DNA of 27,019 bases from a virus. The position numbers were made by a program, and so were the translations under genes. Positions 1,007 through 24,783 of the stretch are shown piece after piece. Every line of letters begins with the position of its first letter. Position 1 is the stretch's first letter. The notes under the pieces are model-generated. The model was not told the origin of the DNA and made no database searches. It saw nothing but the letters and a program-made list of their open reading frames with translations. Location of the stretch: the IMG/VR virus record IMGVR_UViG_3300037502_000162, positions 1-27,019 of that record; one strand, 5' to 3'.

Positions 1007-1022
1007 TTGCGTCTCTCCTTGA

Positions 1023-1349: not shown

Positions 1350-1371
1350 GTCAGTCTCTCCTGTGTGTGTG

Positions 1372-2761: not shown

Positions 2762-2773
2762 TTGTGTCACTCC

Positions 2774-2992: not shown

Positions 2993-3008
2993 GGTGTTCT
3001 CCTCGTTG

Positions 3009-3083
3009 TCACAGTGTCAGGAACAGGTAGCAGATGCTGCATAGCACAGCGAAGCAGGTCGTGTCAACTATGTTGTTTAGCAT
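3009..3083 (-). CDS. Possible 24-aa hydrophobic peptide
   Basis: The gap between the 90-aa gene (stop 3090) and the 72-aa gene contains a 24-codon frame starting at ATG 3083 and ending in TGA at 3009. Its start context, GGGTGACACAAC-ATG, is almost the same as that of the neighbouring genes, which is the main reason to call it. The peptide begins MLNNIVDTTCFAVLCSIC and is hydrophobic over residues 10-24, enough for one membrane span. It could instead be an untranslated spacer. Confidence 0.45.
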   Translation of the reverse strand: MLNNIVDTTCFAVLCSICYLFLTL

Positions 3084-3089
3084 GTTGTG

Positions 3090-3362
3090 TCACCCGTTAT
3101 CAGATACAGCATCAGCAACCTCAGACGCGATGCTGCCGACAGCCATGCGGCAATGGTGCAAAGCATCGAGGATGCGGCGGCGATCATCAATGCAAGCATC
3201 CTCGCCTGCATCTGTTGTGAGGTAGTTGCGACCATGCAACACGTTGCTGCATAGCTTGGCCTGTGCCGCATCTATTGCACTCATGGCGTCAGATAGCGCC
3301 ATGTAAGCATCAGCGAAATCAGCATAGGTGTTGCCATTGAGGTTCGGCTTAGCAGAGATCAT
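3090..3362 (-). CDS. Hypothetical helical phage protein, 90 aa
   Basis: The ATG at 3362 follows AGGAG in the block-typical context AGGAGTGACACAAC-ATG. The product is alanine/aspartate-rich and largely helical ('YADFADAYMALSDAMSAIDAAQ', about residues 13-34, in part), with two cysteines and two histidines near the middle that do not form a clear zinc motif. No family is recognised. The gene is well separated from both neighbours. Confidence 0.75.
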   Translation of the reverse strand: MISAKPNLNGNTYADFADAYMALSDAMSAIDAAQAKLCSNVLHGRNYLTTDAGEDACIDDRRRILDALHHCRMAVGSIASEVADAVSDNG

Positions 3363-3387
3363 GTTGTGTCACTCCTGTTGTGTTGTG

Positions 3388-4005
3388 TCAGTATTTCTTG
3401 ACCATTTCAACGATGGTGTCAACCCCGTTGTTGATGGTGTAGCAGAGGCGGCAATCCTTGCACTGTTGTCCGGTGCAGTTCTGGCGTTCAACATGCTCAT
3501 GTTCCAGCACGTTGTTGAACGTCCGGTCGAAGTGCTGCGGCGGCTTGGCAAGGATGGTGCCGATCTTGGGGTTGCTGTAGATCAAGATCAGGTTAGCAGG
3601 TTTCTCACGGGTTGCGTAGTATTTGGCAACAAGGTCGTTGCGCTTAGTCCACAGAGCGAAGGAACAATGTGGGTTCTTGCGCGCGATCCTGTTGAGGTTC
3701 TCAAGATGCACAAGGTTGATCAATTCGCCATGGGCATTGAAGCGGAAGAAAGCATCTAGGATGGTTGGCACAGCATCATCAGCAAGGATGCTGTTTGCCA
3801 GCGCCTCACTGTTGCGCTGAAGAGCAGGTTGCATGTTCTTGCGATACGAGCCAAGCATGGCGTGGCTGTAGCATTTGGTGCAGATGTTATCTGCTTTGCC
3901 ACTAGCGTTCTGCTTGATGCAATACGCATTTGTGGTGGTGTTGGTGCTGATAGCTTTGAGACCATCAAGCTTGCCTGTCATCTTCGAGATATGGACGACT
4001 TGCAT
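3388..4005 (-). CDS. Cys-cluster phage protein, GP88/DUF7227-like, 205 aa
   Basis: Begins MQVVHISKMTGKLDGLKAIS at ATG 4005, which has AGAGG upstream in the context GAGGTGACACA-ATG; upstream in-frame ATG codons lack an RBS. It resembles a family seen in phages and gut bacteria (I recall DUF7227, related to phage 'gene product 88'). Cysteines are C29, C42-x2-C45 and a C-terminal cluster C177-x4-C182-x2-C185-x2-C188, with a central 'GELINLVHLENL' and 'FALWTKRNDLV'. The cluster could bind zinc or an iron-sulfur centre; a radical-SAM-like or barrel fold is possible but unproven. It is the promoter-proximal gene of the leftward block. Confidence 0.75.
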   Translation of the reverse strand: MQVVHISKMTGKLDGLKAISTNTTTNAYCIKQNASGKADNICTKCYSHAMLGSYRKNMQPALQRNSEALANSILADDAVPTILDAFFRFNAHGELINLVHLENLNRIARKNPHCSFALWTKRNDLVAKYYATREKPANLILIYSNPKIGTILAKPPQHFDRTFNNVLEHEHVERQNCTGQQCKDCRLCYTINNGVDTIVEMVKKY

Positions 4006-4034
4006 TGTGTCACCTCTGTTGCTGGCATGTTTCC

Positions 4035-4063
4035 AATACTGCACATTGCATCCCATGTGTCAA
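4035..4063 (-). promoter_or_regulatory. Candidate leftward promoter for the early block
   Basis: On the minus strand TTGACA (4063-4058), preceded by TGC as at the rightward promoters, is followed after 17 bases by AGTATT (4040-4035), a poor -10. It is the only consensus -35 I see upstream of the leftward genes, about 55 bases before the first start codon. The weak -10 could mean an activator is needed or that the real promoter is elsewhere. Confidence 0.35.
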
Positions 4064-4070
4064 GCACAAG

Positions 4071-4086
4071 CTTAGGCTGGCCTAAG
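4071..4086. promoter_or_regulatory. Palindromic operator candidate CTTAGGC-TG-GCCTAAG
   Basis: Two perfect 7-base arms, CTTAGGC and GCCTAAG, are separated by TG. The site ends 8 bases upstream of the candidate leftward -35, a usual place for an activator or repressor dimer. Further CTTAG/CTAAG words follow within 140 bases. Confidence 0.45.
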
Positions 4087-4291
4087 TTAGATGCAACGTG
4101 CAGAGAAAGAAACATTGCAACGCAACGCTTTAACCGGGGTTTGGCATCGTGTTTATCGTCACGCTTAGGGGCTTAGTGGCATCCACGTTTATTGCCCCCG
4201 TGCCGTATCGGCTGACCGCTAAGCGGCTATGATCTGACGTTGTGTTACATCTGTAGCACTCCTGTTTTGGCGTTGTCAAGCGGTATTTTCG

Positions 4292-5381: not shown

Positions 5382-5633
5382 ATGAAACATCCCCTATTCC
5401 GTGATGACGCACTTGAAGCCTTCTATGAAGCTGTAGCTGCAACTTCCCGTAAGCGTTCTCATGACGCTTTGGAAGCACTGCACATACCAGTTTCAGAAGT
5501 CTTCTATATTCGTGCTGTCATTGAAGCTGACACTGGCATCAAGTATCCCCTTTCCCATGTAGAGGAAGCCTTGTATCTCGAAGGCTACATTGCTGCGGAA
5601 GATTGTTTCGCTAATGCTAAACATTATGCTTGA
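5382..5633 (+). CDS. Hypothetical phage protein, 83 aa; first rightward gene
   Basis: ATG at 5382, no clear Shine-Dalgarno. The product begins MKHPLFRDDALEAFYEAV and continues with helical segments ('DALEALHIPVSEVFYIRAVIEADTG', in part) that could form a small helical DNA-binding or protein-binding fold; I do not recognise it. It is read from the 5109 promoter past a palindrome-rich leader, so it may be a regulator. Its TGA stop lies inside the -35 box of the next promoter (TTGACA, 5630). Confidence 0.7.
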   Translation: MKHPLFRDDALEAFYEAVAATSRKRSHDALEALHIPVSEVFYIRAVIEADTGIKYPLSHVEEALYLEGYIAAEDCFANAKHYA

Positions 5634-5658
5634 CAAACAGTTTCAGTTGTGTTATAAC
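5630..5658 (+). promoter_or_regulatory. Sigma70-type promoter overlapping a stop codon
   Basis: TTGACA (5630-5635), 17-base spacer, TATAAC (5653-5658), followed by TAT. The -35 includes the TGA stop of the upstream gene. Transcription should start near 5665, upstream of a hairpin-containing leader and the small-gene module. Confidence 0.8.
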
Positions 5659-5664
5659 TATTTA

Positions 5665-5765
5665 CATAGCCGTATTTGGCGTCTGGTGCTTTGATACGTA
5701 TTTGTATTCCAAGCCGTAGGCACAAGCGTTGTAACAGATGACGCCCTGTAGCTTGTGCCTGTTTT
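5665..5765 (+). ncRNA. Possible ~100-nt structured RNA or leader ending in a 10-bp hairpin
   Basis: Between the 5630 promoter and the next gene lies about 120 non-coding bases. AGGCACAAGC (5718-5727) pairs exactly with GCTTGTGCCT (5751-5760), and GTTTT follows at 5761, as in a rather weak intrinsic terminator. A second pairing, GGCGTC (5679-5684) with GACGCC (5740-5745), could enclose part of the loop. The word AGCCGTA occurs twice. It may be a small phage RNA, an attenuator or a stabilising 5-prime leader; sequence alone cannot choose. Confidence 0.5.
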
Positions 5766-5782
5766 AACATCGTGGTGTGACA

Positions 5783-6037
5783 ATGGCTAAGTCCCCTGCA
5801 TGGCAGCGTAAAGAAGGCAAAGACCCTGCTGGCGGCTTGAATGCCAAAGGCAGGGCTTCAGCACGTGCTCAAGGCATGAATCTGAAGCCTCCTGCTCCCA
5901 ATCCAAAGACAGATAAAGATAAAAAGAGGCGAAAAAGTTTTTGTGCTCGATCCGCAGGACAGATGAAAATGTTCCCTGAGGCTGCAAAAGACCCTGAGAG
6001 TAGGCTTCGTAAGGCTAGGCGCGCATGGAACTGCTGA
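5783..6037 (+). CDS. Small basic phage protein, DUF6321-like, 84 aa
   Basis: Begins MAKSPAWQRKEGKDPAGGLN. The 'SPAWQRKEGK-x-P-x-GGLNAKGR' start and the 'RRKSFCARSAGQMKM' centre (about residues 49-63) recur in a family of small phage proteins I recall as DUF6321-like; the family has no known function. The product is strongly basic and probably binds nucleic acid. A GTG at 5777 is in frame but ATG 5783 is the better start. It overlaps the endonuclease VII gene by 13 bases. Confidence 0.8.
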   Translation: MAKSPAWQRKEGKDPAGGLNAKGRASARAQGMNLKPPAPNPKTDKDKKRRKSFCARSAGQMKMFPEAAKDPESRLRKARRAWNC

Positions 6038-6435
6038 CCTGTACAAAGTGCAAGACTGAAAAGCCTGCTGATTTGCAGCATTTTCCTCCTCACAACAAGA
6101 AGAAGAATGGGCTTGACAGTTGGTGCAGAGAATGCAGAAGCGCATATCGCAGCAGTATTAATCGTGGTGCCTTTCGTTCTGTAATATCAGACACTGCTTT
6201 GATTGACATGAAGGCATCTGTAACTTCTTGCGTTATCTGTGGGTCAAACGAAAAACTTGTTGTTGATCACGATCACGCTACAGGACAGATTCGTGGTATG
6301 CTGTGCGGGCACTGCAACAGAGGCTTAGGTCATTTTCGTGACGATCCTATGCTGCTTGAGTTTGCTAGGGTGTATCTTTTGTCAAACAGTAGTGACCCTG
6401 AAGCAGAAGAGTATCTAGAAAAACATAGTGCTTGA
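6025..6435 (+). CDS. Recombination endonuclease VII-like HNH nuclease, 136 aa
   Basis: Matches the endonuclease VII family (T4 gp49 type), which cleaves branched DNA such as four-way junctions before packaging. Residues 6-9 (CTKC) and 34-37 (CREC) form an N-terminal zinc-finger-like pair, and C69-x2-C72 with C94-x2-C97 form the core zinc site. The catalytic-type motif is 'VVDHDHATGQIRGMLC' (about 79-94) followed by 'CNRGLGHFRDD'. The extra N-terminal zinc ribbon is common in phage relatives. Its role here is probably resolving replication or recombination intermediates; homing is an alternative. Confidence 0.9.
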   Translation: MELLTCTKCKTEKPADLQHFPPHNKKKNGLDSWCRECRSAYRSSINRGAFRSVISDTALIDMKASVTSCVICGSNEKLVVDHDHATGQIRGMLCGHCNRGLGHFRDDPMLLEFARVYLLSNSSDPEAEEYLEKHSA

Positions 6436-6442
6436 GGTAATC

Positions 6443-6622
6443 ATGGCTACCAAATCTCGTGTCAATGAAGCCGGTAACTACACGAAGCCTTCTATGCGTA
6501 AGGCTCTGTTTGAAAGCATCAAAGCTGGCACCAAAGGTGGCAAAGCAGGTCAGTGGTCAGCGCGTAAGGCACAGATGCTTGCTCAGCAGTATAAGGCTAA
6601 GGGTGGTGGCTACCGTGACTAA
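6443..6622 (+). CDS. Conserved small basic phage protein (DUF5872-like), 59 aa
   Basis: Starts at ATG 6443 with GAGGT upstream. The product begins MATKSRVNEAGNYTKPSMRK and ends in 'GQWSARKAQMLAQQYKAKGGGYRD', a pattern I recall from many marine phages and some bacteria. It is strongly basic, with no membrane segment or catalytic motif. It overlaps the next gene by 8 bases, and the two are likely functional partners. Confidence 0.85.
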   Translation: MATKSRVNEAGNYTKPSMRKALFESIKAGTKGGKAGQWSARKAQMLAQQYKAKGGGYRD

Positions 6623-6869
6623 TCTCAAGAAGCCTCAGCAAAGCCTTCGTAAGTGGACCAAGGAAGAATGGGGTACCAAATCAGGTAAACCATCTACTGT
6701 AGGCAAGGGTGCTACAGGTGAACGCTATCTTCCCAAGGCTGCACGTGAAGCCTTGACGCCTGCTGAGTATGCTGCTACATCTCGTGCCAAGAGAGAAGGC
6801 ACCAAGGCGGGTAAACAATTCGTTAAACAGCCATCCAAGATTGCTGAGAAGACTGCAAGGTATCGCTGA
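6615..6869 (+). CDS. Conserved basic phage protein, 84 aa (GTG start)
   Basis: GTG at 6615 is the likely start: GGGTGG lies upstream, it overlaps the previous gene's end, and the resulting N-terminus 'MTNLKKPQQSLRKWTKEEW' fits the family. Later hallmarks are 'GERYLPKAAREALTPAEYA' and 'GKQFVKQPSKIAEKTARYR'. Proteins with this pattern occur widely in phages beside relatives of the preceding gene. Function is unknown; the high lysine/arginine content suggests nucleic-acid binding. Confidence 0.85.
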   Translation: MTNLKKPQQSLRKWTKEEWGTKSGKPSTVGKGATGERYLPKAAREALTPAEYAATSRAKREGTKAGKQFVKQPSKIAEKTARYR

Positions 6870-12913: not shown

Positions 12914-13073
12914 GATTAAGTCAGAGACAAACATTGTACCAGCCAAAGCAATGGCTGCTGCATACGAGGTAGAGAATGCACAAAACATTGTGTTTAAACC
13001 CAATCCGGGGCCTCAAACAGATTTTTTGGCTGCTACTGAAAGGCAAGTCTTGTTCGGTGGAGCCGCTGGTGGT
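12840..13073 (+). CDS. terL: Terminase large subunit, exon 1 (78 codons)
   Basis: This reading frame gives 'KITPEIKSETNIVPAKAMAA', 'NAQNIVFKPNPGPQTDFLA' and 'RQVLFGGAAGG', the known N-terminal part of large terminases, and breaks off within the Walker A motif where the group I intron begins. Joined to exon 2 it gives GGAAGGGKS. There is no ATG before codon 38 (12951), which would delete conserved residues. TTG at 12840 is my best start, inside the upstream gene, with a poor Shine-Dalgarno site; ATT 12915 is another possibility. The last six bases (GGTGGT) pair with GCTACC (13095-13100) as intron P1. Confidence 0.8.
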
Positions 13074-13937
13074 AAAGTAAATACGCTTTCTGTCGCTACC
13101 TTTTCGTGGTAACACGATCAAAATAAACTTCGTGAACTGCTGGAAAACTTTTATTCTGTCTCACGCTACAACATAACTGGCAACAGTAAGTGTGAATGCT
13201 TGAAAAGAGAGACAGTTAAGCAATCAGCAGCCAAGCGTCTCACTGAGATGAAGGTTCAGAGGCCATCCCGTCAGGGAGTAGGGGAAACCCGAAGCGCGAA
13301 GCCCCTGTTACGCAGGGTGAAGATATGGTCCAAAGCAACTTTAATGTTTGACCAGCGAAAGCTGAAGTACCAAAAGGTAGAAACATGCAATACGTACTGT
13401 ACAAGGCGACATCGCCTTCTGGAAGAACATACATAGGCATTACAAATAACTTCAAGCGTAGAATGAAAGAACACGGGAGTAGTCCTTACGCTTTTGGCAA
13501 AGCGTTACGCAAGTACGGCAGAGAAAACTTTAACTACGAGTTTGAGTTGTATCCTGACGTAGAAGCAGCCTTGACAAGAGAGGCGGAACTTGTTACTGTA
13601 GAGGCGGTTAAGTCAAAGCGACTCTACAACGAGTCTGTCGGTGGAGTATTCAGCGACTCGTTGAGAAACATGAATCCGATGCACAATCCTGAAGTTCTAA
13701 GTAGACACCCGAATTTGTTTACATCAGAGAATAACCCTATGAACGATCCAGAAGTACGCGAAAAGGCTAAAGCATCACATGAACCTTACAAGAAAAAGGT
13801 TTCTATAGATGGCGTTGTGTACGTAGGTGTTAGAGAGGCAGCACGGCAACTAAACTCGTATAGGCAGTTTGTTGTACATAGGCTAAAATCTTCTAACTAT
13901 CCAACATGGTTCTACGTCAAAGATTAAAGTTGCTTTG
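13074..13937 (+). ncRNA. Group I intron in terL with GIY-YIG endonuclease gene
   Basis: Core segments are visible in order: P (AACTGCTGG, 13135-13143), Q (AATCAGCAGCCAAG, from 13222), R (AAGGTTCAGAGGCCAT, ending 13266) and S (GGTGAAGATATGGTCC, 13316-13331). P7 pairs GGCCAT (13261-13266) with ATGGTC (13325-13330). P1 pairs exon GGTGGT with GCTACC, ending in the expected U-G pair at the splice site; TCGTG/CACGA (13104-13117) forms a P2-like hairpin. The intron ends in G (13937), as group I introns do. Subgroup IA is likely. The endonuclease gene lies downstream of the core, in the P9 region. Confidence 0.9.
13385..13927 (+). CDS. GIY-YIG homing endonuclease, 180 aa (intron-encoded)
   Basis: Residues 3-18 carry the GIY-YIG signature in the form YVLY...TYIG, followed by R25/R26 and H30; the catalytic glutamate is probably one of E66/E68. 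A linker region contains two NUMOD3-like repeats ('MNPMHNPEVLSRHPNLF' and 'NNPMNDPEVREKAKASH', about 95-132), and the C-terminus has a NUMOD1-like helix-turn-helix ('SIDGVVYVGVREAARQLN', about 139-156). This is the I-TevI-like layout of catalytic and DNA-binding ends. It should cut intron-lacking terminase genes near the insertion site and spread the intron. AAAAGG upstream of ATG is the ribosome-binding site. Confidence 0.92.
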   Translation: MQYVLYKATSPSGRTYIGITNNFKRRMKEHGSSPYAFGKALRKYGRENFNYEFELYPDVEAALTREAELVTVEAVKSKRLYNESVGGVFSDSLRNMNPMHNPEVLSRHPNLFTSENNPMNDPEVREKAKASHEPYKKKVSIDGVVYVGVREAARQLNSYRQFVVHRLKSSNYPTWFYVKD

Positions 13938-15233
13938 GGTAAATCCTATGCCATGCTTGCTGACCCTTTGCGTGACATGAATAATCCCGGCTTCAGTGGC
14001 CTTCTTGTTCGACATACTACTGAAGAACTCCGTGAACTCATCATGAAATCACAGGAGTTGTATCCTAAAGCTATTCCGGGCATTCGATGGAGTGAACGAA
14101 AGCAGCAGTGGGTTACGCCTCGTGGTGGAACACTGTGGATGTCGTATCTCGACAGGGACATGGATGTTCTGCGCTATCAAGGACAGGCATTTAACTGGAT
14201 TGGCTTTGACGAGTTGACGCAATGGGCTACTCCCTATGCATTCAACTACATGGGGTCTCGTCTTCGTACCGCTGATTCTACACTGAAACTGTACATGCGA
14301 TGCACTAGCAACCCCGGTGGTCCGGGACACAGTTGGGTGAAAAAGGGTTTCGTTGATCCGTCGCCATATAATAAAGCCTTTGCTGCAGTAGACTTTGAAA
14401 CGGGTGAAGTACTCAAGTTTCCGAAAGGTCACAGCAGAGAAGGTGAACCACTCTACAAGCGGCGATTCATTCCTGCCACACTGTTTGACAATCCTTATCT
14501 TGCAAAGGATGGCGAATACGAGTCAATGCTTCTGTCTATGCCAGAAAATCAGCGTAGACAACTGCTGTATGGCGATTGGGATGTGTCTGATGGCGCTGCA
14601 TTTCCTGAGTTTAACAGGAACATACACGTCATTGATCCCTTTCCTATCCCGTCCAATTGGGCGCGTTTTCGTGCAGCAGACTATGGCTACGGCAGTATGA
14701 CTGCAGTTTTGTGGTTTGCCGTTACACCGTCTGAGCAGCTTATCGTGTATCGTGAACTCTACGTCAAGAAAGTCACAGCGGTTGATCTTGCTGAGATGAT
14801 CAATGAGATAGAGAGAGAAGACAAGATTCGCTACGGTGTGCTGGACTCGTCTTTGTGGCATAAGCGTGGTGACACAGGCCCTTCTCTTGCGGAGCAAATG
14901 ATCATGAGGGGCTGCAGATGGCGTCCCTCGGATCGAAGCAAAGGGTCTCGCGTAGCTGGCAAGAACGAGTTGCATCGTAGGCTTCAGATAGACGAGTTCA
15001 CAAATGAGCCTAGACTTGTGTTCTTCTCTACTTGCACTAACTTGATTGCTGAATTGCCTGTCCTACCGCTGGACAGAAACAATCCAGAAGACGTAGATAC
15101 AGCGGCCAATGATCACGGGTACGATGCGCTGCGATACGGAATCATGAGCCGTCCCCGCAGCAGCATATGGGACTACGATCCTGCATCAAATGGTAACAAA
15201 TTCAAGCCTGCAGACTCAGTATTAGGATACTAA
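13938..15233 (+). CDS. terL: Terminase large subunit, exon 2 (431 codons)
   Basis: Starts at the GGT completing Walker A: GKSYAMLADPL follows directly. Walker B is 'FNWIGFDEL' (D169, E170 in spliced numbering). The C-terminal nuclease domain shows 'FRAADYGYGSMTAVLWF', 'YGVLDSSLWHKRGD' and 'ANDHGYDALRYG', each supplying an acidic residue of the metal site. The spliced protein is about 509 residues, normal for an ATP-driven DNA packaging motor with headful or end-cutting nuclease. Without splicing, exon 2 has no start codon with ribosome-binding site and lacks a complete Walker A, so splicing is required. Confidence 0.93.
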   Translation, partial: GKSYAMLADPLRDMNNPGFSGLLVRHTTEELRELIMKSQELYPKAIPGIRWSERKQQWVTPRGGTLWMSYLDRDMDVLRYQGQAFNWIGFDELTQWATPYAFNYMGSRLRTADSTLKLYMRCTSNPGGPGHSWVKKGFVDPSPYNKAFAAVDFETGEVLKFPKGHSREGEPLYKRRFIPATLFDNPYLAKDGEYESMLLSMPENQRRQLLYGDWDVSDGAAFPEFNRNIHVIDPFPIPSNWARFRAADYGYGSMTAVLWFAVTPSEQLIVYRELYVKKVTAVDLAEMINEIEREDKIRYGVLDSSLWHKRGDTGPSLAEQMIMRGCRWRPSDRSKGSRVAGKNELHRRLQIDEFTNEPRLVFFSTCTNLIAELPVLPLDRNNPEDVDTAANDHGYDALRYGIMSRPRSSIWDYDPASNGNKFKPADSVLGY

Positions 15234-15236
15234 AAC

Positions 15237-17384
15237 ATGGAAGAAGAACTTTTTGAAACTGATGCGTCCTCGTCGCTGAAAGACAAGACAAAAGGCGATA
15301 CGGTTGATCCCAAAGCTGGAACGCTTGTCAGCTACATCATGGGTCGCTTCAGTGAGGCAGAAGATGCTCGCCGTGTGGATGAAGATCGGTGGCTGATGTC
15401 GTATCGCAACTATCGTGGCATCTACGGTCCTGAAACACAGTTTACTGAAACTGAAAAGTCTCGCATCTTTGTCAAGATCACCAAGACAAAAGTGCTTGCG
15501 GCGTATGGGCAAATCGTTGACGTGCTGTTTGCCAACAATTCATTCCCGCTGTCTGTTGATCCTACTACTCTGCCTGAAGGCGTTGCGGAAAGTGTCCACA
15601 TGGAGACTAATCCGCAGGCTGAACAGGCTACACAGCAACTCAAGGACGCTTTTGGCAAGAAGCCTGAGCGTCCTGTTTTGTTTGGGCCTGACACTGTGCT
15701 GCAGCCCGGAGACACGATGGAAAGCCTTCAGCGGCGTCTTGGTGGCATGAAAGATAAGCTGTCTCCTGTGATGGAGAAGCTTGTTGAAGGCCCCGGCACG
15801 ACGCCTACTGCTATTACATTCCACCCTGCTATGGTCTCAGCCAAGAAGATGCAGAAGAAGATCATGGACCAGCTTGAAGAAAGCAACGCAAACAAGCAGT
15901 TGCGTCTTGCTGCATTTGACTGCGCCCTGTTTGGCACAGGCATCATGAAGGGTCCGTTTGCCATAAACAAAGAGTATCCGCGTTGGGATGAAGAAGGTGA
16001 ATACAATCCTCTTGTAAAGACTGTTCCTTCTACTGGCTACGTGTCAGTGTGGAACTTCTACCCTGATCCTGATGCTGCCAACATGGATGAAGCAGAGTAT
16101 GTCATTGAGCGTCACAAGATGTCTCGCTCTCAGCTTCGCTCCTTGAAAAAGCGCCCATTCTTCCGTGCTAATGCAATCAGCAGTGCCATTGAACGCGGCG
16201 AAAGCTATGAACGCAAGTATTGGGAACTTGCAATGGAAGATGATCGTGCTCATGACAAAGCTGAACGCTTTGAAGTGTATGAGTTTTGGGGCTATGTTGA
16301 TGCTGATGTGTTGAAAGATCATGACATCAACATTCCTGTTGAACTTCGTGGCCTTGATCAACTCAGCATCAATGCATGGATTTGCAATGGCAATATCATT
16401 CGCCTTGTGATGAACCCATACAAGCCCAGCATCATTCCTTACTTTGCTGTTCCGTATGAAGTCAGTCCATACAGCTTCTTTGGCGTTGGTATTGCAGAGA
16501 ACATGACTGACACGCAGCAACTCATGAACGGCTTCATGCGTATGGCTGTTGATAATGCTGTTCTCAGCGGCAACCTGATCTTTGAAGTCGATGAAACCAA
16601 CCTTGTGCCGGGGCAAGATATGACACTGTATCCCGGCAAGATTTTCCGCAGGCAAGGTGGCGCTCCGGGTCAAGCATTGTTCAGCACTAAGTTTCAGAAC
16701 GTCACTGGTGAATTGATGCAACTGTTTGATAAGGCTCGTGTTCTTGCTGATGAAAGCACTGGCTTCCCGTCATTTGCTCATGGACAAACTGGTGTCAGCG
16801 GTGTTGGCAGGACTGCAAGTGGCATCTCGATGCTGATGTCTGCTGCTAACGGCAGCATCCGCACTGTCATCAAGAACATTGATGATTACCTGATTGCGCC
16901 TCTTGGTAAGGCACTCTTCAGCTTCAACATGCAGTTTGACTATGATCCTGAAATCAAAGGCGATCTTGAAATCAGGGCACAAGGTACTGAAAGCCTCATG
17001 GCTAACGAAGTGCGCAGTCAGCGTCTGATGCAGTTCCTCGGCGTTGTGTCTAATCCTGTGCTTGCACCGTTTGCTAAAATGGATTATATTGTTCGTGAGA
17101 TTGCAAAGAGCATGGACCTCGATCCTGACAAGCTGACTAACTCGCTTTCTGATGCTGCTGTTCAAGCTGAAATCTTCAAGAAGTTTGCGCAGCCGCTGCC
17201 AGAGGCTATGGGAGCGCCTGCTGGGCCGCAAGCTGGTCCTCCGGGTGTCCCTGCACCAGCGGGAGCAGGAGCGCCTCCTACAGGCGCAGGAGTGGCTGAT
17301 ATGACTGGCGGCGGTGCTGGCAACATTGGTGTTGGTGCCGCTGCGCGTCCCGGTGAATCTGGGTTTAGCGGAAATATTCAATGA
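15237..17384 (+). CDS. Portal protein, 715 aa
   Basis: A long head-to-tail connector-type portal protein directly after the large terminase. It begins MEEELFETDASSSLKDKTKG, has 'YIMGRFSEAEDARRVDEDRW' (about residues 33-52), 'VFVKITKTKVLAAYGQIVDV'-like residues near 76-95, and 'YEVSPYSFFGVGIAENMTDTQ' (about 409-429), the wing/stem region typical of large podovirus portals. The end (about 655-715) is a proline/glycine/alanine-rich, probably disordered tail. Twelve copies would form the vertex through which DNA enters. It overlaps the next gene as ATGA. Confidence 0.9.
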   Translation: MEEELFETDASSSLKDKTKGDTVDPKAGTLVSYIMGRFSEAEDARRVDEDRWLMSYRNYRGIYGPETQFTETEKSRIFVKITKTKVLAAYGQIVDVLFANNSFPLSVDPTTLPEGVAESVHMETNPQAEQATQQLKDAFGKKPERPVLFGPDTVLQPGDTMESLQRRLGGMKDKLSPVMEKLVEGPGTTPTAITFHPAMVSAKKMQKKIMDQLEESNANKQLRLAAFDCALFGTGIMKGPFAINKEYPRWDEEGEYNPLVKTVPSTGYVSVWNFYPDPDAANMDEAEYVIERHKMSRSQLRSLKKRPFFRANAISSAIERGESYERKYWELAMEDDRAHDKAERFEVYEFWGYVDADVLKDHDINIPVELRGLDQLSINAWICNGNIIRLVMNPYKPSIIPYFAVPYEVSPYSFFGVGIAENMTDTQQLMNGFMRMAVDNAVLSGNLIFEVDETNLVPGQDMTLYPGKIFRRQGGAPGQALFSTKFQNVTGELMQLFDKARVLADESTGFPSFAHGQTGVSGVGRTASGISMLMSAANGSIRTVIKNIDDYLIAPLGKALFSFNMQFDYDPEIKGDLEIRAQGTESLMANEVRSQRLMQFLGVVSNPVLAPFAKMDYIVREIAKSMDLDPDKLTNSLSDAAVQAEIFKKFAQPLPEAMGAPAGPQAGPPGVPAPAGAGAPPTGAGVADMTGGGAGNIGVGAAARPGESGFSGNIQ

Positions 17385-17572
17385 GTCTGAAGAAGTTCGT
17401 AAATGATCACGGCATGTGGTCCAGCTTTCTTGATATGCTGGATGGCGAAATTGCTGTGCAACACAAGCGTATGGAACAAGTTAGTGACGCAATGGAACTG
17501 CATAGGGCACAAGGTGAGATTGCAGCTTTGCGTAAACTCAAGATGCTGAGGGATAAGCTGAATCATGGTTGA
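17381..17572 (+). CDS. Small conserved coiled-coil protein after portal, 63 aa
   Basis: Begins MSLKKFVNDHGMWSSFLDML and ends 'AALRKLKMLRDKLNHG'; it is entirely helical. Short proteins of this pattern follow the portal gene in many podovirus-like genomes, and may help portal or head assembly. Overlaps the portal stop (ATGA) and the next gene by 8 bases, so all three are translated together. Confidence 0.8.
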   Translation: MSLKKFVNDHGMWSSFLDMLDGEIAVQHKRMEQVSDAMELHRAQGEIAALRKLKMLRDKLNHG

Positions 17573-20500
17573 CAGAACTGCTGAAGCATTCAAACTCAAA
17601 GAAATGCGTGACTACGTTGCCTCTATTGGAAGTCTTGGCACACCTGAAGCACGGCTTGATCTTGAAGCTGCAGGATACACACCTGAAGAAATTCAGAGGT
17701 CACGGGCATTTGAGCCTGAAGGACAGATGTACCCTAAGCCACTGCCTGCTCAATCTACATCTGAAGCAAAAATTGAGCCTTATACGCCTACGCTTAGGGA
17801 AGACAATCGCTATAAAATTACTACACAACTGCAAGAATTGGGCATGAACAGGAACGCTGCTGATGCTCTTGCAGATGATATTGTTGGTAATCCTCAAGCG
17901 ATGGGCGATATGCTCAGCGGCATAGGGCTGCTTGACTTTACGCCTATGGGTGCAGCCTATGCTACACAAGAAGGCTACCGTACAGCCAAGAGAGGCATTG
18001 CCAGTGGCGATCCTCTTACTACTGGCATGGGTGTACTTGAAGCTGGACTTGGTGTTGCAGAAGCTATTCCGCTGACTAAGCCTCTGGCTAAAGGTGTGTC
18101 ACGTGCTGTTACACGTATGGCTGAATCATATGATCCCAATGTGTTGGGAAGCAATTTGGGTAACGTAGGACAAGCAGGTGGTAAACCTAAGCGGCCACTG
18201 GTGCCGAGGTTTGAGCAGCGGCCTCTTTTTGAGCAGCGGCCTCTTACAGATTTCACGGATAAAATAGCCTATCTGAAAACTGACTTGTCTAATAAAATAG
18301 AACAAGCCAGAGCGAGGGGGTCTTATGCATCGGTCAGAATGACAAGCAGAGAGTTATCGGTTCTTAACTTAGATAACAATGACCTATTCAACGATATCAT
18401 AAAAATATATGACGCAAATGATCCTAGATATGCTTCAAAACAAGTGCTATCAAAGTACAATGATATTATTCCACAAGACGTAACACCTTTCAACTTGGAG
18501 GTTCTTTCTAGTAGTTTACGTTATTTAACAGACTATGAACCACCTGCTGCCTTAGGCTCCTCTCAAACACGTTTCCGCTCCCCTATTGAATCTGTTGTTC
18601 AACAACTAGAATATCCTCGTGATGGCATCAAGGGTTCACAGTTCTTGAAGGAACTGAAAGATAACCCGGATGTGCGGGACTCTGAGGTTGCAGGCATTGG
18701 TCTAGACATTGATCCGCAGAAACGATACACGCAGCAGGAACTGATGGACGCTGTCAGTGGTAGGCTGTATGATGTTACTGTTGATAAAAAGAAAGGATAT
18801 GAAGGATATCAACGACAAAGAGACGTTGGGCTAAACCGCGCCAATGAAAAAGACTATTTTGAACTTGTTGTAAACGCAAATCCTAGAGGCGACAACCCCG
18901 GCTTTAAGGCTATTTCACAGCACTACGACAAAAACACTCTTGCTCACACTCGTGCTTCCGTACAAGAGGACAACTTAGGCGACTATATTCTTGTTGAAGA
19001 AATGCAGAGCGATCTGCTGCAACAGGGTTTTGAGCCTGCTGCTAAAGCTAAGCAATACGATATTGAAGAAAATTTGAAGATAACCAATGCCTACATAAAT
19101 GACGAACTGACTAAGTTCTCCAACGATCAACTAGACTTCATTGGTATTGATGATGATGGCAACATAATTACAGCACCTCTTGCTCCTGAAAAAACTGATG
19201 CATATAAGGCCCTGCAAAGATGGAATCAGTTAGATGACTACTCTAAACAGGACATTATTAAACAGTTTGCTGATCCCCTTAGTACACCAAGATCAAGAGG
19301 TAGAATTGTAAGAGATTACTTTGACAAGGCAGTTGATCCCTACTTTTTAGACAACTTGAGATACATGTTTGACGACGCCGTACCTAAAACTGAAACTGCT
19401 CGCAGCGTCCCTCCTATTGCTAAAACAGAAGAATCCGTACGCCTTGCCATTGATGCTCTCATGGCAGAAGGGCAAAAGCGTGGTGTGTCGCGTATTGTGA
19501 TACCTCCCCTTGAGAAGATTGTTGAGGCACGGTTTAATAAAGGGGGCAGAGAGTATAATAAAGCACTCGATCCTAAATCTGGTTTTTACGCAACGTATGT
19601 CACTTCTGTAAACAAGGTGCTTGACAAATACAAGAAAGAGTTTGGTGACGACTTTGTTGTAAGAAAAGTTGACTTGCCTTACACAGGCAACTCATTGGAA
19701 AAACAATTTGTTGATTACGCTCTTAGAAAAGGTATCATAGATGACTACGATGATGATACTGGCGTATCCGAAATTTTTGAAATAGTTGCTAACAGACATT
19801 ACAATAGACAAATTGGATTTAGGAATTACGACGATTCTAAATTTGACGCATACATCCAGCATCTGGAAGACACACTTCCAAATTTCAAGTATGACAAAAA
19901 ATGGACACTTGATGAGTTTGTATTGAATGCAAATCGAGGCTACATTGAATTGATTAAACAATTGCCTAAAATAGCAGAAGGCACAGAAATAGACTTCAGC
20001 GGCCTCGTCAACAAAAACTACAACCTGACACGTCCACGTTTCGCAGAAGGCGGCATGGTAGACAAAAACACGGAGACACAAATGAATAGACTAATGCAAG
20101 AAGGCGGTATCGCTGACGATGGTATGCGCCGCGATCCTGTCAGCGGCAATGAAATACCTCCGGGCAGCATGGCTTCAGAAGTACGTGATGACATTCCTGC
20201 TCAGCTTTCTGAGGGTGAATATGTCGTGCCTGCAGATGTGCTGCGTTACTACGGTGTGGCATTCTTTGAAAAGCTTCGTGCTAAAGCCAAAGAAGGCATG
20301 GCGCAGATGGAGCAGGATGGCCGCATTGGTGGTGAACCTGCGCCTATGCGTGGTAATATGGAAGATGAAGAAGACGACGATGACGAAGATGAACTGCCTT
20401 TTGACGTGTCTGAATTGCAGACCTCTGGCGGTGGCAACGGTGTTGACATGCAGATGGCGTCTATGGGTATGGCACAAGGCGGCATGGTGCGGATGCAACA

Positions 20501-21545
20501 AGGCGGCATGACGCCTACTGCTACACCCGCTGCACCTGCTCGTGCTCCTGCGTTCAATCCAATGGACTGGATGACTCCGGGCAGCAGCTATTTCCAGCAG
20601 CCCCAGCAACAACAGCAACAGACTGAATACCGTGTGTATCAAAATACACAAGGTCAACAAATGTCTATCATGTTTGTCAATGGTGTTGCACAGCAGCCTA
20701 TTCCTGAAGGCTACTTTCCGCAAGGCCAAGCACCCACTGTGACTACACCTACTCCTACTGCAACCGCTGAACGTGAAAGTGGCTTCTCTGATAGAGCACC
20801 TCCGCGCGATGTAGCAGGTGAATGGGCTGCTGGCAACTATGAGGCCATTCTTAGTGATCCTGTTGCTGCTGCTCGTGCAACTGCTCCGGGCCGCATGGAA
20901 AGTGCCATTGTCGGACTGCTTCCCGGTGGTCGTTCCATGATGGCTGCTAACCAAGTGCAGAAGATGGAAGCGATCAAAGAGATGGCGCTTTCTAGTGGCA
21001 ACACTGCTGCTGCTGAGGCTATTCAGGCGCAGATTGATGCACGTATGGAAGACATTGGACTGCTTGGTAAGGCGATTCTGTCTATGTCTAATCCTTACAC
21101 TGCAAAGTTGCAAGAGCGCGCTGCAACTGCCAGTGCCACACGTGCTACAACTGCCCCTGTTGCGGGTGGCCGCACGTCTGCTGGACTTGGTGAGCGTCCT
21201 GCTACTACTGCTCGCTCTACTGCAGCCTCTGCTCCTGTTGGTGGTCGTGGTACTGGTGCTGCTCCTGTTGCTACTGGCAGACCGTCTGGCGTTTCTTCAC
21301 GAGGCGTTAGTGCGCTTGAAGGGCCTGAAGCAGGAGGTGCTGGTACAAGAAGTGCAGCAAGTGCTTCTCCTGCTGCTTCCCCTCCCGGTGCAAAGTCTGA
21401 TAAGGAAAGAGAGGCAGAACGTGTCTCTGGTGCAATGCGAGATATCTCCCGTGGTGTTCAGCGTGGTTTCAGCAAAGGTGGACTCGCTACACGGCCTCAA
21501 AAACAAAAAGCAGAAAAGCGTAAAATCAAAACAACTGATGCTTGA
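17565..21545 (+). CDS. 1326-aa mosaic virion-region protein with polyvalent-like module
   Basis: Three parts are visible. Residues about 1-225 ('SIGSLGTPEARLDLEAAGYTP', 'MGDMLSGIGLLDFTPMGAAY') resemble N-terminal regions of large phage proteins. Residues about 227-822, from a more A-rich DNA stretch, contain 'GDYILVEEMQSDLLQQGF' (about 470) and 'TEESVRLAIDALMAEGQKRG' plus 'VSRIVIPPLEKI' (about 621-652), like domains of phage polyvalent proteins. Residues about 833-920 ('DPVSGNEIPPGSMASEVRDD', 'IPAQLSEGEYVVPADVLRYY') match a conserved portal-neighbour family. Acidic, Q-rich and Ala/Gly-rich segments and a basic end follow. It is probably an internal or ejected virion protein; this is inferred. 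Confidence 0.8.
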   Translation: MVDRTAEAFKLKEMRDYVASIGSLGTPEARLDLEAAGYTPEEIQRSRAFEPEGQMYPKPLPAQSTSEAKIEPYTPTLREDNRYKITTQLQELGMNRNAADALADDIVGNPQAMGDMLSGIGLLDFTPMGAAYATQEGYRTAKRGIASGDPLTTGMGVLEAGLGVAEAIPLTKPLAKGVSRAVTRMAESYDPNVLGSNLGNVGQAGGKPKRPLVPRFEQRPLFEQRPLTDFTDKIAYLKTDLSNKIEQARARGSYASVRMTSRELSVLNLDNNDLFNDIIKIYDANDPRYASKQVLSKYNDIIPQDVTPFNLEVLSSSLRYLTDYEPPAALGSSQTRFRSPIESVVQQLEYPRDGIKGSQFLKELKDNPDVRDSEVAGIGLDIDPQKRYTQQELMDAVSGRLYDVTVDKKKGYEGYQRQRDVGLNRANEKDYFELVVNANPRGDNPGFKAISQHYDKNTLAHTRASVQEDNLGDYILVEEMQSDLLQQGFEPAAKAKQYDIEENLKITNAYINDELTKFSNDQLDFIGIDDDGNIITAPLAPEKTDAYKALQRWNQLDDYSKQDIIKQFADPLSTPRSRGRIVRDYFDKAVDPYFLDNLRYMFDDAVPKTETARSVPPIAKTEESVRLAIDALMAEGQKRGVSRIVIPPLEKIVEARFNKGGREYNKALDPKSGFYATYVTSVNKVLDKYKKEFGDDFVVRKVDLPYTGNSLEKQFVDYALRKGIIDDYDDDTGVSEIFEIVANRHYNRQIGFRNYDDSKFDAYIQHLEDTLPNFKYDKKWTLDEFVLNANRGYIELIKQLPKIAEGTEIDFSGLVNKNYNLTRPRFAEGGMVDKNTETQMNRLMQEGGIADDGMRRDPVSGNEIPPGSMASEVRDDIPAQLSEGEYVVPADVLRYYGVAFFEKLRAKAKEGMAQMEQDGRIGGEPAPMRGNMEDEEDDDDEDELPFDVSELQTSGGGNGVDMQMASMGMAQGGMVRMQQGGMTPTATPAAPARAPAFNPMDWMTPGSSYFQQPQQQQQQTEYRVYQNTQGQQMSIMFVNGVAQQPIPEGYFPQGQAPTVTTPTPTATAERESGFSDRAPPRDVAGEWAAGNYEAILSDPVAAARATAPGRMESAIVGLLPGGRSMMAANQVQKMEAIKEMALSSGNTAAAEAIQAQIDARMEDIGLLGKAILSMSNPYTAKLQERAATASATRATTAPVAGGRTSAGLGERPATTARSTAASAPVGGRGTGAAPVATGRPSGVSSRGVSALEGPEAGGAGTRSAASASPAASPPGAKSDKEREAERVSGAMRDISRGVQRGFSKGGLATRPQKQKAEKRKIKTTDA
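18211..18245 (+). repeat. Short tandem duplication at the module boundary
   Basis: The 17-base word TTGAGCAGCGGCCTCTT occurs at 18211-18227 and 18229-18245, repeating FEQRPL in the protein. It lies where the base composition changes to the A-rich central module of the 1326-aa gene, so it may mark a recombination join. Confidence 0.7.
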
Positions 21546-21570
21546 CATTCAGCACAACTCGTGTCAAAAT
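21542..21570 (+). promoter_or_regulatory. Candidate promoter before the scaffold gene
   Basis: TTGACA (21542-21547) overlaps the TGA stop of the upstream gene, as at 5630, and the flanking ATGCTTGACA is the same. After 17 bases comes CAAAAT (21565-21570), a moderate -10. A CTGTTA-TACG-TAACAG hairpin (21582-21597) with a UNCG-type loop follows, before the scaffold ribosome-binding site. Confidence 0.45.
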
Positions 21571-21618
21571 AATCAGGCGACCTGTTATACGTAACAGCCC
21601 CATATAAAGGAGTATATT

Positions 21619-22515
21619 ATGGCTGAACTTGGTACTGTTGAAGCGCCCAAAAACGCTGGATATGTTGTGACTGCTTCTCGTAATACAGCTTTCATGAACC
21701 GTATTGAAGCGGATGAGAAAGAAATTGAAGAACTTGAGAAGATGCAACGTGAAGGGCGTGAAACAAAGCCTCAAGTGAAAGAACCTGTTAAGCAGGCGGC
21801 TGAACCTGAAGAAAAAGAGGAGAAGCTGTCTGCTGAAGAGGCGACTTACAAGAAGCGATACGGTGATCTTCGCAGGCACATGAATGAACTGACGGAAAAG
21901 CTGAAAGACATGGAGGCTCGCCTTGAGTCTGCTCAAAAAGAAGGTCGCATTGTTGCCCCTAAGAATGATGCTGATGTTGCAGCGTGGATGAAAAAGTATC
22001 CTGATGTAGCAGCTATCGTAGAGGCTATTGCAGACAAGAAAGCAAGTGAAAAGTTTGCTGGTGCAGAAGCACGGTTGAAGCAGATTGATGAAATGAGTGC
22101 CGAAGCTGAGCGCAAGAAGAATGAAGCTGAAATTCGTGCAGTGCATAAGGACTTCGATGAACTGCGAGACAGTGATGCTTTCCACAATTGGGCTGATGAG
22201 CAGCCGAAGTGGGTAAAGGATGCACTGTATGAAAACGCAGATGATCCAAAAAGTGTCATCAAGGTAATTGATCTGTACAAGTTTGAAAATGGACTTGACA
22301 CTCGTGGACGCAAATCTGCTGCCAAGGATGCTGCATCTGCTATTGTGACCAAGCGGACAAAGATTGATGTTGACGCTGATGGTGGTGGCAAAACGATCTA
22401 CGAAAGCCAAGTGCAGAAGATGTCTGATCGTGAATACGAAAAGCGTCAAGACGAAATCATGGAAGCTATCCGCAATGGCACTTTCGTGTATGATATTTCT
22501 GGTGGAGCACGATAA
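21619..22515 (+). CDS. Capsid scaffolding protein, 298 aa
   Basis: Strong AAAGGAG upstream of ATG 21619. The product is highly charged and almost entirely helical: 'IEADEKEIEELEKMQREGRE' (about residues 29-48), 'LTEKLKDMEARLESAQKEGR' and 'QKMSDREYEKRQDEIMEAI'. It lacks cysteine and has the acidic, coiled-coil composition of scaffolding proteins, and lies immediately before the major capsid gene as they usually do. It should guide procapsid assembly and then leave. No protease motif is seen. Confidence 0.85.
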   Translation: MAELGTVEAPKNAGYVVTASRNTAFMNRIEADEKEIEELEKMQREGRETKPQVKEPVKQAAEPEEKEEKLSAEEATYKKRYGDLRRHMNELTEKLKDMEARLESAQKEGRIVAPKNDADVAAWMKKYPDVAAIVEAIADKKASEKFAGAEARLKQIDEMSAEAERKKNEAEIRAVHKDFDELRDSDAFHNWADEQPKWVKDALYENADDPKSVIKVIDLYKFENGLDTRGRKSAAKDAASAIVTKRTKIDVDADGGGKTIYESQVQKMSDREYEKRQDEIMEAIRNGTFVYDISGGAR

Positions 22516-22523
22516 AAAAGTGC

Positions 22524-22552
22524 TTGACAAATAGAATTACCTATGATATAAC
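22524..22552 (+). promoter_or_regulatory. Sigma70-type promoter for the major capsid gene
   Basis: TTGACA (22524-22529), 17-base spacer, TATAAC (22547-22552) followed by TAT, matching the promoters at 5109 and 5630. It starts 9 bases after the scaffold stop and gives the capsid gene its own transcript, beginning near 22559. High capsid demand explains an extra promoter. Confidence 0.82.
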
Positions 22553-22559
22553 TATAGGT

Positions 22560-22796
22560 ATGACAATGGGCTGGTAGCTGCGTAGCGGACGCTGGCCCAA
22601 TAAGTCTAAGCAGCCCCGTAAGGATACCTGCTTAGACTTTGACTAAAGCCTAAACAACGACATGAGACTCACCTGTAACAGCAGGCCCGTTTCATGTAGT
22701 GTCGGCCAATGCTACATGAGACGCACCCTGAAATGTGCAGCCTCTACATGCAGTGTTTAGCTACAACAAAGCCAAACATTCATGGAGGATACTACA
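22560..22796 (+). promoter_or_regulatory. Long structured 5-prime leader of the capsid gene
   Basis: Non-coding, about 240 bases. AAGTCTAAGCAG (22602-22613) pairs exactly with CTGCTTAGACTT (22628-22639). TCATGTAG (22692-22699) pairs with CTACATGA (22712-22719), and CTACATG appears again at 22744-22750 as a competing partner. TGGGC/GCCCA near 22567-22599 make a third stem. The words CATGAGACTCACC (22661) and CATGAGACGCACC (22715) are near-identical repeats. GGAGG sits 8 bases before ATG. The structure may stabilise the mRNA or regulate capsid translation; it may also be processed into a small RNA. Confidence 0.6.
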
Positions 22797-22979
22797 ATGG
22801 CTTTTCAAACTGCTGCAGGCTATACCAACCTGCCCAATGGCAATTTCAGTAGCGTAATCTACTCGAAAAAAGTCCAACTCGCGTTCCGTAAGGCCACCGT
22901 TGTCGGTGCGATTACGAACTCGGATTACTTCGGTGAAATCGCTAATCAGGGTGACACCGTTCGTATCATCAAAGAGCCT
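22797..22979 (+). CDS. Major capsid protein, exon 1 (61 codons)
   Basis: Begins MAFQTAAGYTNLPNGNFSSV with GGAGG upstream. The text 'VIYSKKVQLAFRKATVVGAI' and 'SDYFGEIANQGDTVRIIKEP' is the conserved N-terminus of a podovirus major capsid family. After RIIKEP the frame turns into intron and ends within nine codons. Relatives continue as in exon 2 (EISVAAY). Bases GCCT (22976-22979) pair with GGGC (22988-22991), ending in U-G at the splice site. Spliced length is 357 residues. Confidence 0.92.
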
Positions 22980-23892
22980 AGAATTTTGGGCCTTCTGGCG
23001 GCATAACGTCAGTAAGATAATCCTGTGAATTGCTGGAACCCTAAGTCTTAGGATATGGGAATCAGCAGCCAAGCCCCGAGAGGGGAAGGTTCAACGACTA
23101 GGATATACTTATAATCAAGTAGTGGCTCGGCGTAGCTAACGAAAGGGAAAAACATGAACGCACGTAAACGTGGCATCCTTTATGGGATGGCTATAGGTGA
23201 TGGTTGTATCTCCTTGAATAAGAGTGCAAAAGACGATACAGCACGGTTAATCATAGGACATGGACCTATGCAACTGGCTTATCTTAAAGATAAGGCGCGT
23301 CTTCTTCATTCTATTCTTGGAGGAAAAGAAATACCTATATATACACACAAAAGTTACAATCACTCTACTCAAAAAGAGTACACGAACCATCAGTTGTATC
23401 GTAATGAAGCCTACTTTAGGCAGATGCACAGAGTGATGTATCCACAAGGCAAAAAACTCTTTACGGAACAGCTTCTTAGTTATCTAACAGACTACAGCTT
23501 AGCACTGTGGTATATGGATGACGGAAGCGGCACTATTTCAAAGAACGCAAAAACAAAAGCGCCTTGCGGTTGTATGACACGTATCTCTACGTATTGTTCA
23601 AAATATGAAGCAGAACTTCTTAAGGAGTGGTTTCTTGACAAGTACAAAATAGAACCTAAGTTTGATGTGGATAAGCGCAGCAACAAGTATTCTTTGCGGT
23701 TTAACACAAACGACTCTAGGACGTTTGTATCTGTCGTGGCACCATACGTATTTCCTTCTATGAAGTATAAACTTGCTCATGTAGACAAGTATATCCCACG
23801 AGCGCAGGACACCCTAAGGGGTGAAGATATAGTCTGAACTTTAGGGAAACCTAAAGGTATGCGAAATTAAAAAGGCATACGTAACTGTTTTG
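22980..23892 (+). ncRNA. Group I intron in the capsid gene with LAGLIDADG endonuclease
   Basis: P (AATTGCTGG, 23028-23036), Q (AATCAGCAGCCAAG, from 23060), R (GAAGGTTCAACGACTA, ending 23100) and S (GGTGAAGATATAGTC, 23820-23834) are all present. P7 pairs GACTA (23096-23100) with TAGTC (23830-23834). P1 pairs exon GCCT with GGGC. P10 pairs exon 2 GAAAT (23893-23897) with ATTTT (22983-22987), strongly supporting both splice sites. It ends in G (23892). The endonuclease gene lies between R and S, so within the P8 region, and its 3-prime end overlaps the core. Confidence 0.92.
23154..23837 (+). CDS. LAGLIDADG homing endonuclease, 227 aa (intron-encoded)
   Basis: Two LAGLIDADG motifs are present: 'ILYGMAIGDG' (residues 8-17; D16 catalytic) and 'LALWYMDDG' (about 116-124), about 105 residues apart as in single-chain enzymes. 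GAAAGGG upstream of ATG is a good ribosome-binding site. The enzyme should cut capsid genes lacking the intron. Its last codons (GEDIV then stop) are read from the ribozyme S segment, so protein and RNA constraints overlap there. It is unrelated to the GIY-YIG enzyme of the terminase intron. Confidence 0.92.
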   Translation: MNARKRGILYGMAIGDGCISLNKSAKDDTARLIIGHGPMQLAYLKDKARLLHSILGGKEIPIYTHKSYNHSTQKEYTNHQLYRNEAYFRQMHRVMYPQGKKLFTEQLLSYLTDYSLALWYMDDGSGTISKNAKTKAPCGCMTRISTYCSKYEAELLKEWFLDKYKIEPKFDVDKRSNKYSLRFNTNDSRTFVSVVAPYVFPSMKYKLAHVDKYIPRAQDTLRGEDIV

Positions 23893-24783
23893 GAAATCTC
23901 GGTTGCTGCGTATGCTCGTGGCACTCAGATCACGCCGCAAGACCTTGATGACGAAGACTTTTCGCTCATCATCGACAAAGCGAACTACTATGCGTTCAAA
24001 GTTGATGACATCGAAGCTGCGCATTCGCATGTCAACTTCATGGACCTTGCGACCAACCGTGCTGCCTATCGTCTTGCTGACCAGCATGACCAAGAAGTTC
24101 TTGGCTACCTGTCTGGCTACAAGCAGTCGGCTCTGCACTCCGCTGCTGACACCGTTAATGACATCGTGAACGGCACGAAAGCTATCTCGTCGGCTGGTTC
24201 GGATGAACTTCTGACTGGCATGAAGTTGATCAAGAGTTCGTTTGGCAACATCACCACTGTTGGTGCTGGCGATCACTCGATCCCCGTTGCTGCTCGTCTT
24301 CCGGGCGCTACGTCGCTTCCGACCGACTACGTGTCGCCTGCCATGCTCGTTTCGCGTATGGCTCGTCTGCTTGACCAGCAGAACGTGGAATCGACGGGTC
24401 GCTGGCTCGTTGTCGATCCTGTGATGCTTGAAGTCCTCCGCGATGAAGATTCGCGTCTGCTTCAGGCCGAGTGGGGTCAGTCGGGTGCGCTGCGTAATGG
24501 CCTCGTGCTCAGCAACTTCCACGGCTTCCGTGTTCACGTGTCGAACAACCTGCCGAAAAAGGGCACTGGTCCGGGTACCACTGGTACTGGCAACCAGAAC
24601 AACAACTTCGGTGTCGTCGTTGCTGGTCATGATTCGGCTGTCGCCACTGCTGAGCAGATCAGCAAGACAGAAACCTATCGCGATCCTGACTCGTTTGCTG
24701 ACATTGTTCGGGGTATGCACCTCTATGGCCGTAAAATCCTTCGTCCTGAAGCGATTGTTACCGCCAAGTACAACCTCGCGTAA
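23893..24783 (+). CDS. Major capsid protein, exon 2 (296 codons plus stop)
   Basis: Continues the capsid as 'EISVAAYARGTQITPQDLDD' with 'DKANYYAFKVDDIEAAHSHV', 'MDLATNRAAYRLADQHDQEV' and 'SPAMLVSRMARLLDQQNVES', ending 'GRKILRPEAIVTAKYNLA'. These are the E-loop, spine and axial-type regions of an HK97-fold capsid in this family; positions are not certain. There is no own start codon with ribosome-binding site. Serine is nearly always TCG and codon ends are C-rich, unlike the portal or scaffold, fitting very high expression. Confidence 0.93.
   Translation, partial: EISVAAYARGTQITPQDLDDEDFSLIIDKANYYAFKVDDIEAAHSHVNFMDLATNRAAYRLADQHDQEVLGYLSGYKQSALHSAADTVNDIVNGTKAISSAGSDELLTGMKLIKSSFGNITTVGAGDHSIPVAARLPGATSLPTDYVSPAMLVSRMARLLDQQNVESTGRWLVVDPVMLEVLRDEDSRLLQAEWGQSGALRNGLVLSNFHGFRVHVSNNLPKKGTGPGTTGTGNQNNNFGVVVAGHDSAVATAEQISKTETYRDPDSFADIVRGMHLYGRKILRPEAIVTAKYNLA

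Follow-up and report, generated by a model that had tools for sequence, protein, structure and literature searches.

The group I introns of phage T4 carry different homing endonucleases, and in the DNA polymerase gene of SPO1-type phages similar introns reportedly contain divergent open reading frames (ORFs). The DNA considered here, the 27,019 nucleotides (nt) of IMG/VR virus record IMGVR_UViG_3300037502_000162 that are called the window throughout, derives from a marine phage with two predicted self-splicing introns, one in the DNA-packaging gene terL (intron 1, positions 13074-13937, on the plus strand like every intron feature given below) and one in the major capsid protein (MCP) gene (intron 2, 22980-23892). 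Whereas in SPO1-type phages one gene is said to carry different ORFs, the window phage has two sites with one ORF family each. T4 resembles the window phage in possessing several group I introns (td, nrdB and nrdD, as against terL and MCP), as PMC3706429 describes, and in having one intron that encodes a GIY-YIG endonuclease with the I-TevI DNA-binding domain. The I-TevI gene lies in the P6 loop (Edgell et al., 2011, PMC3073962), whereas the GIY-YIG gene of the window is located in a stem-loop beside the 3′ splice site and does not overlap the core. Mycobacteriophage LittleE also harbors a spliced MCP intron with a LAGLIDADG-like ORF, but that ORF is on the opposite strand and the phage is unrelated to the window phage (PMC3706429). 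Introns in terminases and in capsid genes are mentioned in PMC3984707 and PMC3706429, respectively, and like introns that contain unlike, differently placed ORFs are described in PMC3073962 (section 7). The window phage itself is a podovirus of the HMO-2011 type, an assignment that follows from the kinship of its TerL, at most 75.8% identical to that of Roseobacter phage CRP-603, and of its MCP, at most 79.8% identical to that of CRP-9. A possible intron in the DNA polymerase of other phages is raised in one of five papers that mention both HMO-2011 and introns, and among the titles listed by full-text literature searches none concerns terL or MCP introns in phages of this type.

With a probability of roughly 93%, the two elements are separate mobile group I introns that belong to old, site-bound lineages, neither having been copied from the other inside the phage. 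The initial annotation, which had drawn attention to near-identical P, Q, R and S blocks, was correct in that all four occur in both introns (at 13139/23032, 13222/23060, 13250/23085 and 13316/23820), with 15 nt identical at the Q block, and its outer limits are exact, 13074 being the first base of intron 1 and 23892 the last of intron 2. Without mismatch, the Q and R pattern occurs in at least 120 viral stretches of the collection scan, and P, Q and R are all exact in 17 of 21 loci of the GIY-YIG set and 14 of 38 of the LAGLIDADG set, the counted loci being those retrieved by endonuclease similarity alone in which 200 nt or more precede the gene. Matches by blastn (E up to 1) come from 106 records for intron 1 and 537 for intron 2 and include unrelated phages. 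The blocks are shared beyond chance, yet they are a family-wide group I consensus, and for that reason their near-identity is no evidence for kinship of the two introns.

Comparison of 155 distinct cores, cut from P3 to P7, places the two introns far apart. Their cores are 58.6% identical over 87 positions. By closeness to intron 1, intron 2 ranks 125th among 154 cores, and in the converse ranking intron 1 is 152nd of 154. Since the Q and R patterns had served to retrieve many of the cores, the columns of these blocks were masked; identity is then 43.8% over 64 positions, the ranks are 134 and 152 of 154, and 89 of the 103 introns outside terL and MCP are closer to intron 1, and 102 closer to intron 2, than the two are to each other. 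The nearest core to intron 1 is that of a terL intron at the same codons (our locus L366; 97% of core segment A), and the nearest to intron 2 that of an MCP intron at the same codons (L286; 93% of core segment A). For a careful tree, 26 of the 155 cores without a usable S block were dropped, and from the remaining 129 a sample of 81 was drawn that retains every terL and MCP core plus 36 random cores from other sites. Intron 1 falls among the terL introns in this tree (100/99 with L366) and intron 2 among the same-site capsid introns (98/89), and the approximately unbiased (AU) test rejects a tree in which they are sisters (p = 5.4e-5).

The distribution of the endonucleases follows the same division. 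All 22 viral loci with GIY-YIG relatives are in terL, at the same terminase codons as intron 1, and 27 of 41 viral loci with LAGLIDADG relatives are in genes of the MCP type; of these relatives the closest (67-72%) share the MCP site of the window, and many others are at residue 43. A search for the GIY-YIG protein in bacterial genomes gave only one match of 17 residues. Among the best 80 relatives surveyed for each gene, 79 terL loci are uninterrupted and one is split at the site of intron 1, and 79 MCP loci are uninterrupted around the site of intron 2 and one has an intron 18 codons upstream. Both lineages are thus of sporadic occurrence; for example, the terL intron is absent from L001 and L002, which have a TerL 95% identical to the query, and present in L003 (91%). 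One other locus, L377, has both introns and both endonucleases. Two same-site terL introns of 410 and 523 nt (L373 and L381) have lost all but the C-terminal portion of the GIY-YIG gene, and appear to be steps in endonuclease decay. Taken together, the comparisons show two long-standing pairs of intron and endonuclease rather than a recent event in the window phage, and they are compatible with separate acquisition of the two introns.

The restored reading frames and the covariation described below suggest that each intron RNA would excise itself from the message and thereby restore the terminase or the capsid protein. Each endonuclease would cleave alleles of its host gene that lack the intron, at the site of insertion, and repair of the cut would then copy the intron in. 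Intron 1 with its GIY-YIG gene and intron 2 with its LAGLIDADG gene would thus have spread among phages independently, and the likeness of their cores would reflect membership of the group I family only. Among 17 terL introns, endonuclease identity is correlated with ribozyme identity (r 0.55, p 0.0002) and uncorrelated with that of the terL exon (r 0.11, p 0.20), the correlation between ribozyme and terL being weak (r 0.15, p 0.095). Because the endonuclease tracks the ribozyme and not the exon, the intron and endonuclease probably move as a unit apart from the gene.

Intron 1 interrupts the Walker A codons of terL (GGT GGT/GGT AAA) and scores 52.2 bits against Rfam model RF00028 (Intron_gpI), and intron 2 interrupts the codons AAA GAG CCT/GAA ATC of the MCP gene and scores 60.6 bits; both scores are above the gathering score of 50. 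Removal of the introns gives stop-free frames (...LFGGAAGG/GKSYAM... and ...RIIKEP/EISVAAY..., respectively), which continue in the terL 3′ exon (13938-15233; Terminase_6N, phrog_979, the searched piece beginning at 13935) and the MCP 3′ exon (23893-24783; phrog_267). At both borders U ends the 5′ exon and G ends the intron (GGTGGT/...TTTG/GGT and GAGCCT/...TTTG/GAA), as is characteristic of group I introns. In intron 1 the internal guide sequence GCTACC (13095-13100), which is the 3′ strand of P1, pairs 6/6 with the 5′ exon hexamer GGTGGT (13068-13073). The core then comprises the P3 5′ strand CTTCGTG (13128-13134), the P block GCTGG as the 5′ strand of P4 (13139-13143), the Q block AATCAGCAGCCAAG on the 3′ side of P4 and the start of P6 (13222-13235), the R block GAAGGTTCA from the 3′ strand of P6 into P7 (13250-13258), a P7.2-type hairpin GGGGAAACCC (13281-13290) with two-sided changes in 4/4 pairs, the P3 3′ strand CGCGAAG (13295-13301; two-sided changes in 4/7 pairs of P3), a covarying P8 hairpin (13302-13317) and the S block GGTGAAGATAT-GTC, which spans P8 and the 3′ strand of P7 (13316-13330). 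As the initial annotation stated, the GIY-YIG gene follows the core: it forms the loop of a P9-type stem (5′ strand 13332-13344, 3′ strand 13924-13936) whose 3′ strand contains the stop codon of the gene and ends one base short of the 3′ splice site. The gene (13385-13927; phrog_314) encodes 180 amino acids with both a catalytic GIY-YIG domain (PF01541, 1.3e-7) and an I-TevI-type DNA-binding domain (PF20987, 5.7e-8). Folding of intron 1 alone gives a weak z of -2.25, which was not used as evidence.

In the terL lineage, covariation across 20 introns, a set that leaves out L373 and L381 with their decayed GIY-YIG genes, is seen in P3, P5, P6, P7.2 and P8 as well as in the stem closing the GIY-YIG gene. 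The closing stem, a helix of 14 pairs, has two-sided changes at 10 of them, and only one of 259 cells is non-canonical, in a count made without a shuffled control. P4 is present and invariant, and P7 was placed by eye and by the Rfam alignment. In all of 24 terL introns, which were deduplicated by core and include two manual additions, 6/6 pairs form between the guide hexamer and the exon, and the guide matches the wobble base of the glycine codon (GGA-T in 13, GGT-A in 9 and GGG-C in 2); because the sequences are related and flanks are co-converted, the 24 matches did not all arise independently. The 311-nt ribozyme of the window is 95.5% identical to that of L003, against 54% identity at fourfold sites of the homing endonuclease gene (HEG) and 48% at those of terL; the RNA is therefore under strong constraint.

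A displaced member of the terL lineage occurs in the Rhizobium phages RHph_N3_13 and I3_11 as an unannotated intron of 222 nt from which the endonuclease gene is absent (L347, MN988507.1, 2009-2230; also L348, MN988510.1). Because of it, terL is mis-split in both deposited genomes, the start of terL being placed late and the 5′ part labelled hypothetical. Whereas the usual insertion site is after the second GGTGGT of the P-loop codons, this intron is inserted 12 nt farther upstream, after the first; its guide, GCCACC, fits, and P10 consists of four pairs. In RHph_N3_19, the terL gene of which is uninterrupted, four of the first six bases past the intron position differ from those of N3_13, as against one in the next 54 and eight in the next 594. 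This tract fits co-conversion at the DNA level, or selection for P10. A relocation by guide-directed reverse splicing, in which the lineage would have moved the 12 nt between the two copies of the guide target, is an unlikely, minority reading since the tract of 4/6 bases fits co-conversion better; if true, the Rhizobium case would capture a guide-directed move of a phage group I intron from one site to its neighbor.

Intron 2 has the P3 5′ strand TCCTGTG (23021-23027), the P block GCTGG (23032-23036), the Q block (23060-23073) and the R block (23085-23093) with the same sequences as in intron 1. The LAGLIDADG gene (23154-23837, 227 amino acids) encodes the whole LAGLIDADG_2 domain (PF03161, 1-168 of 168; 1.5e-23). 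As the initial annotation had it, the two endonucleases are unrelated and differently placed. The LAGLIDADG gene lies inside the core, as had been claimed, its exact place being between the 5′ strand of P7 and the 3′ strand of P3, not L8. The P3 3′ strand CGCAGGA (23803-23809), the P8 hairpin CACCCTAAGGGGTG (23810-23823) and the S block (23820-23834), which is translated as GEDIV right before the stop codon at 23835, are all within the ORF, such that its terminal codons (...PRAQDTLRGEDIV) double as P3′, P8 and P7′; a P9 hairpin, CTTTAGGGAAACCTAAAG (23839-23856), follows. The Rfam alignment of intron 2, in which P3′ is located where the endonuclease ORF begins, was set aside on this point, since 23803-23809 pairs 7/7 with the 5′ strand. 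This helix covaries in homologues: P3′ as placed pairs 7/7 in 15 of 18 rows, the window included, as against 29 of 288 swapped pairs, the 18 being those of 24 rows in which P3′ is recognizable by motif and the other six being uncounted.

Among homologues of the LAGLIDADG gene, each of the three frames is used to read the S block. Three of the 24 rows were set aside (a duplicate, a row that ends ahead of S and a row whose S block is that of the following intron); of the others, 15 give GEDIV/DDDIV-type readings, four end in TAG within the block and two end at its TGA. Core creep (Edgell et al., 2011, PMC3073962, section 7) predicts variable 3′ extension of the ORF, and the three-frame reading is as predicted. 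In that review, endonuclease ORFs likewise reach into and contribute to core helices and have variable 3′ ends; its table holds single cases, whereas the LAGLIDADG family of the window reads one block in three frames.

Other capsid genes were seen to carry further introns. In L288 (IMGVR_UViG_3300028844_003113, about 905-3744), one capsid gene is interrupted by three group I introns, all with a LAGLIDADG gene of their own, and the exons between them, whose ends were placed by eye, measure only about 22 and 36 nt; L289 shares 1200 of 1200 compared bases with L288. Capsid-gene introns without a LAGLIDADG match are present in L287 (about 3850-4143), L180 (about 2801-3060), L220 and L375, at other residues (96/97, about 57, 106 and 109), and their cores, where included in the tree, are apart from those of the LAGLIDADG capsid introns. 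Outside a recognized capsid gene, L245 (about 5514-6800) contains a pair of group I cores separated by 300 nt, of which the second has a LAGLIDADG gene.

Several observations weigh against the interpretation of two separate, mobile lineages. The core yields only about 118 columns, and a single clade of terL and same-site MCP introns is not rejected (p 0.125), so that an older common source for both lineages is possible. The quick tree of all 155 cores was opposite for the pair, the tree holding the two introns together being 30 log units better (p 0.724); this outcome was distrusted, as the columns are too few and the search was poor, and the careful 81-row run reversed it. P1 of intron 2 consists of four contiguous pairs judged by eye, and because its exon is invariant the guide test is inapplicable to this intron. 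As to mobility, HEG and MCP divergence are correlated (r 0.59) among 19 capsid introns at several sites, and the decoupling of endonuclease and host gene therefore holds for terL only. Finally, the HEG and terL are equally diverged at fourfold sites between the window and L003, and recent transfer between these two is thus unsupported.

The proposal of the initial annotation that one intron arose as a copy of the other inside the phage and was given a different endonuclease does not survive the core comparison. Shared blocks of up to 15 nt speak for it, but the cores of introns from other sites are closer (the two rank 125th and 152nd of 154), the pair is rejected by the AU test, each intron has close same-site kin in other phages, and the introns differ in their layout from P7 to P3′; a recent copy is refuted, and the proposal as a whole is highly improbable. 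An assembly artefact, for which only the derivation of the window from a single contig could be adduced, is less probable still, and is practically negligible given that many separate contigs have these introns at these sites.

The other proposal, that two related introns without ORFs were invaded separately by endonuclease genes, is compatible with the data insofar as both are group I introns with endonucleases of unrelated families in different places; the near-identical blocks lend it no support. Members without an ORF exist, for example L347/L348, L180 and the second intron of L287, but these may equally be losses, and L373 and L381 retain a partial GIY-YIG gene. This history is plausible, if somewhat short of even odds. 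It is improbable that the introns are immobile relics retained only through splicing, as their sporadic presence and some decayed endonucleases might suggest, because both ORFs of the window are intact with their domains kept, and HEG proteins are 67-86% identical in compared pairs in which fourfold sites are only 27-54% identical. The interpretation as two separate mobile lineages is therefore retained.

Elsewhere in the window, an endonuclease VII-like gene (6025-6435; PF02945, 9e-17; phrog_2633) is a candidate for a Holliday resolvase or a free-standing nuclease. A 1326-amino-acid ORF (17565-21545) has an Ala/Gln-rich C-terminal half and no PHROG match, and an alanine-rich low-complexity repeat (1756-2425) is open in several frames on both strands.

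As mobile group I introns go, the pair in the window is ordinary. An endonuclease of this kind can harm a competing phage (Birkholz et al., PMC11620839), and by analogy those of the window could have such a role. Conserved ribozyme blocks, the pair warns, are no sign of recent copying, the guide sequence of the terL lineage follows the synonymous base of the host codon across phages, and a LAGLIDADG family that reads one ribozyme block in three frames is a natural test of core creep. For the phages themselves, terL and MCP, which are common phage marker genes, can be split by introns.

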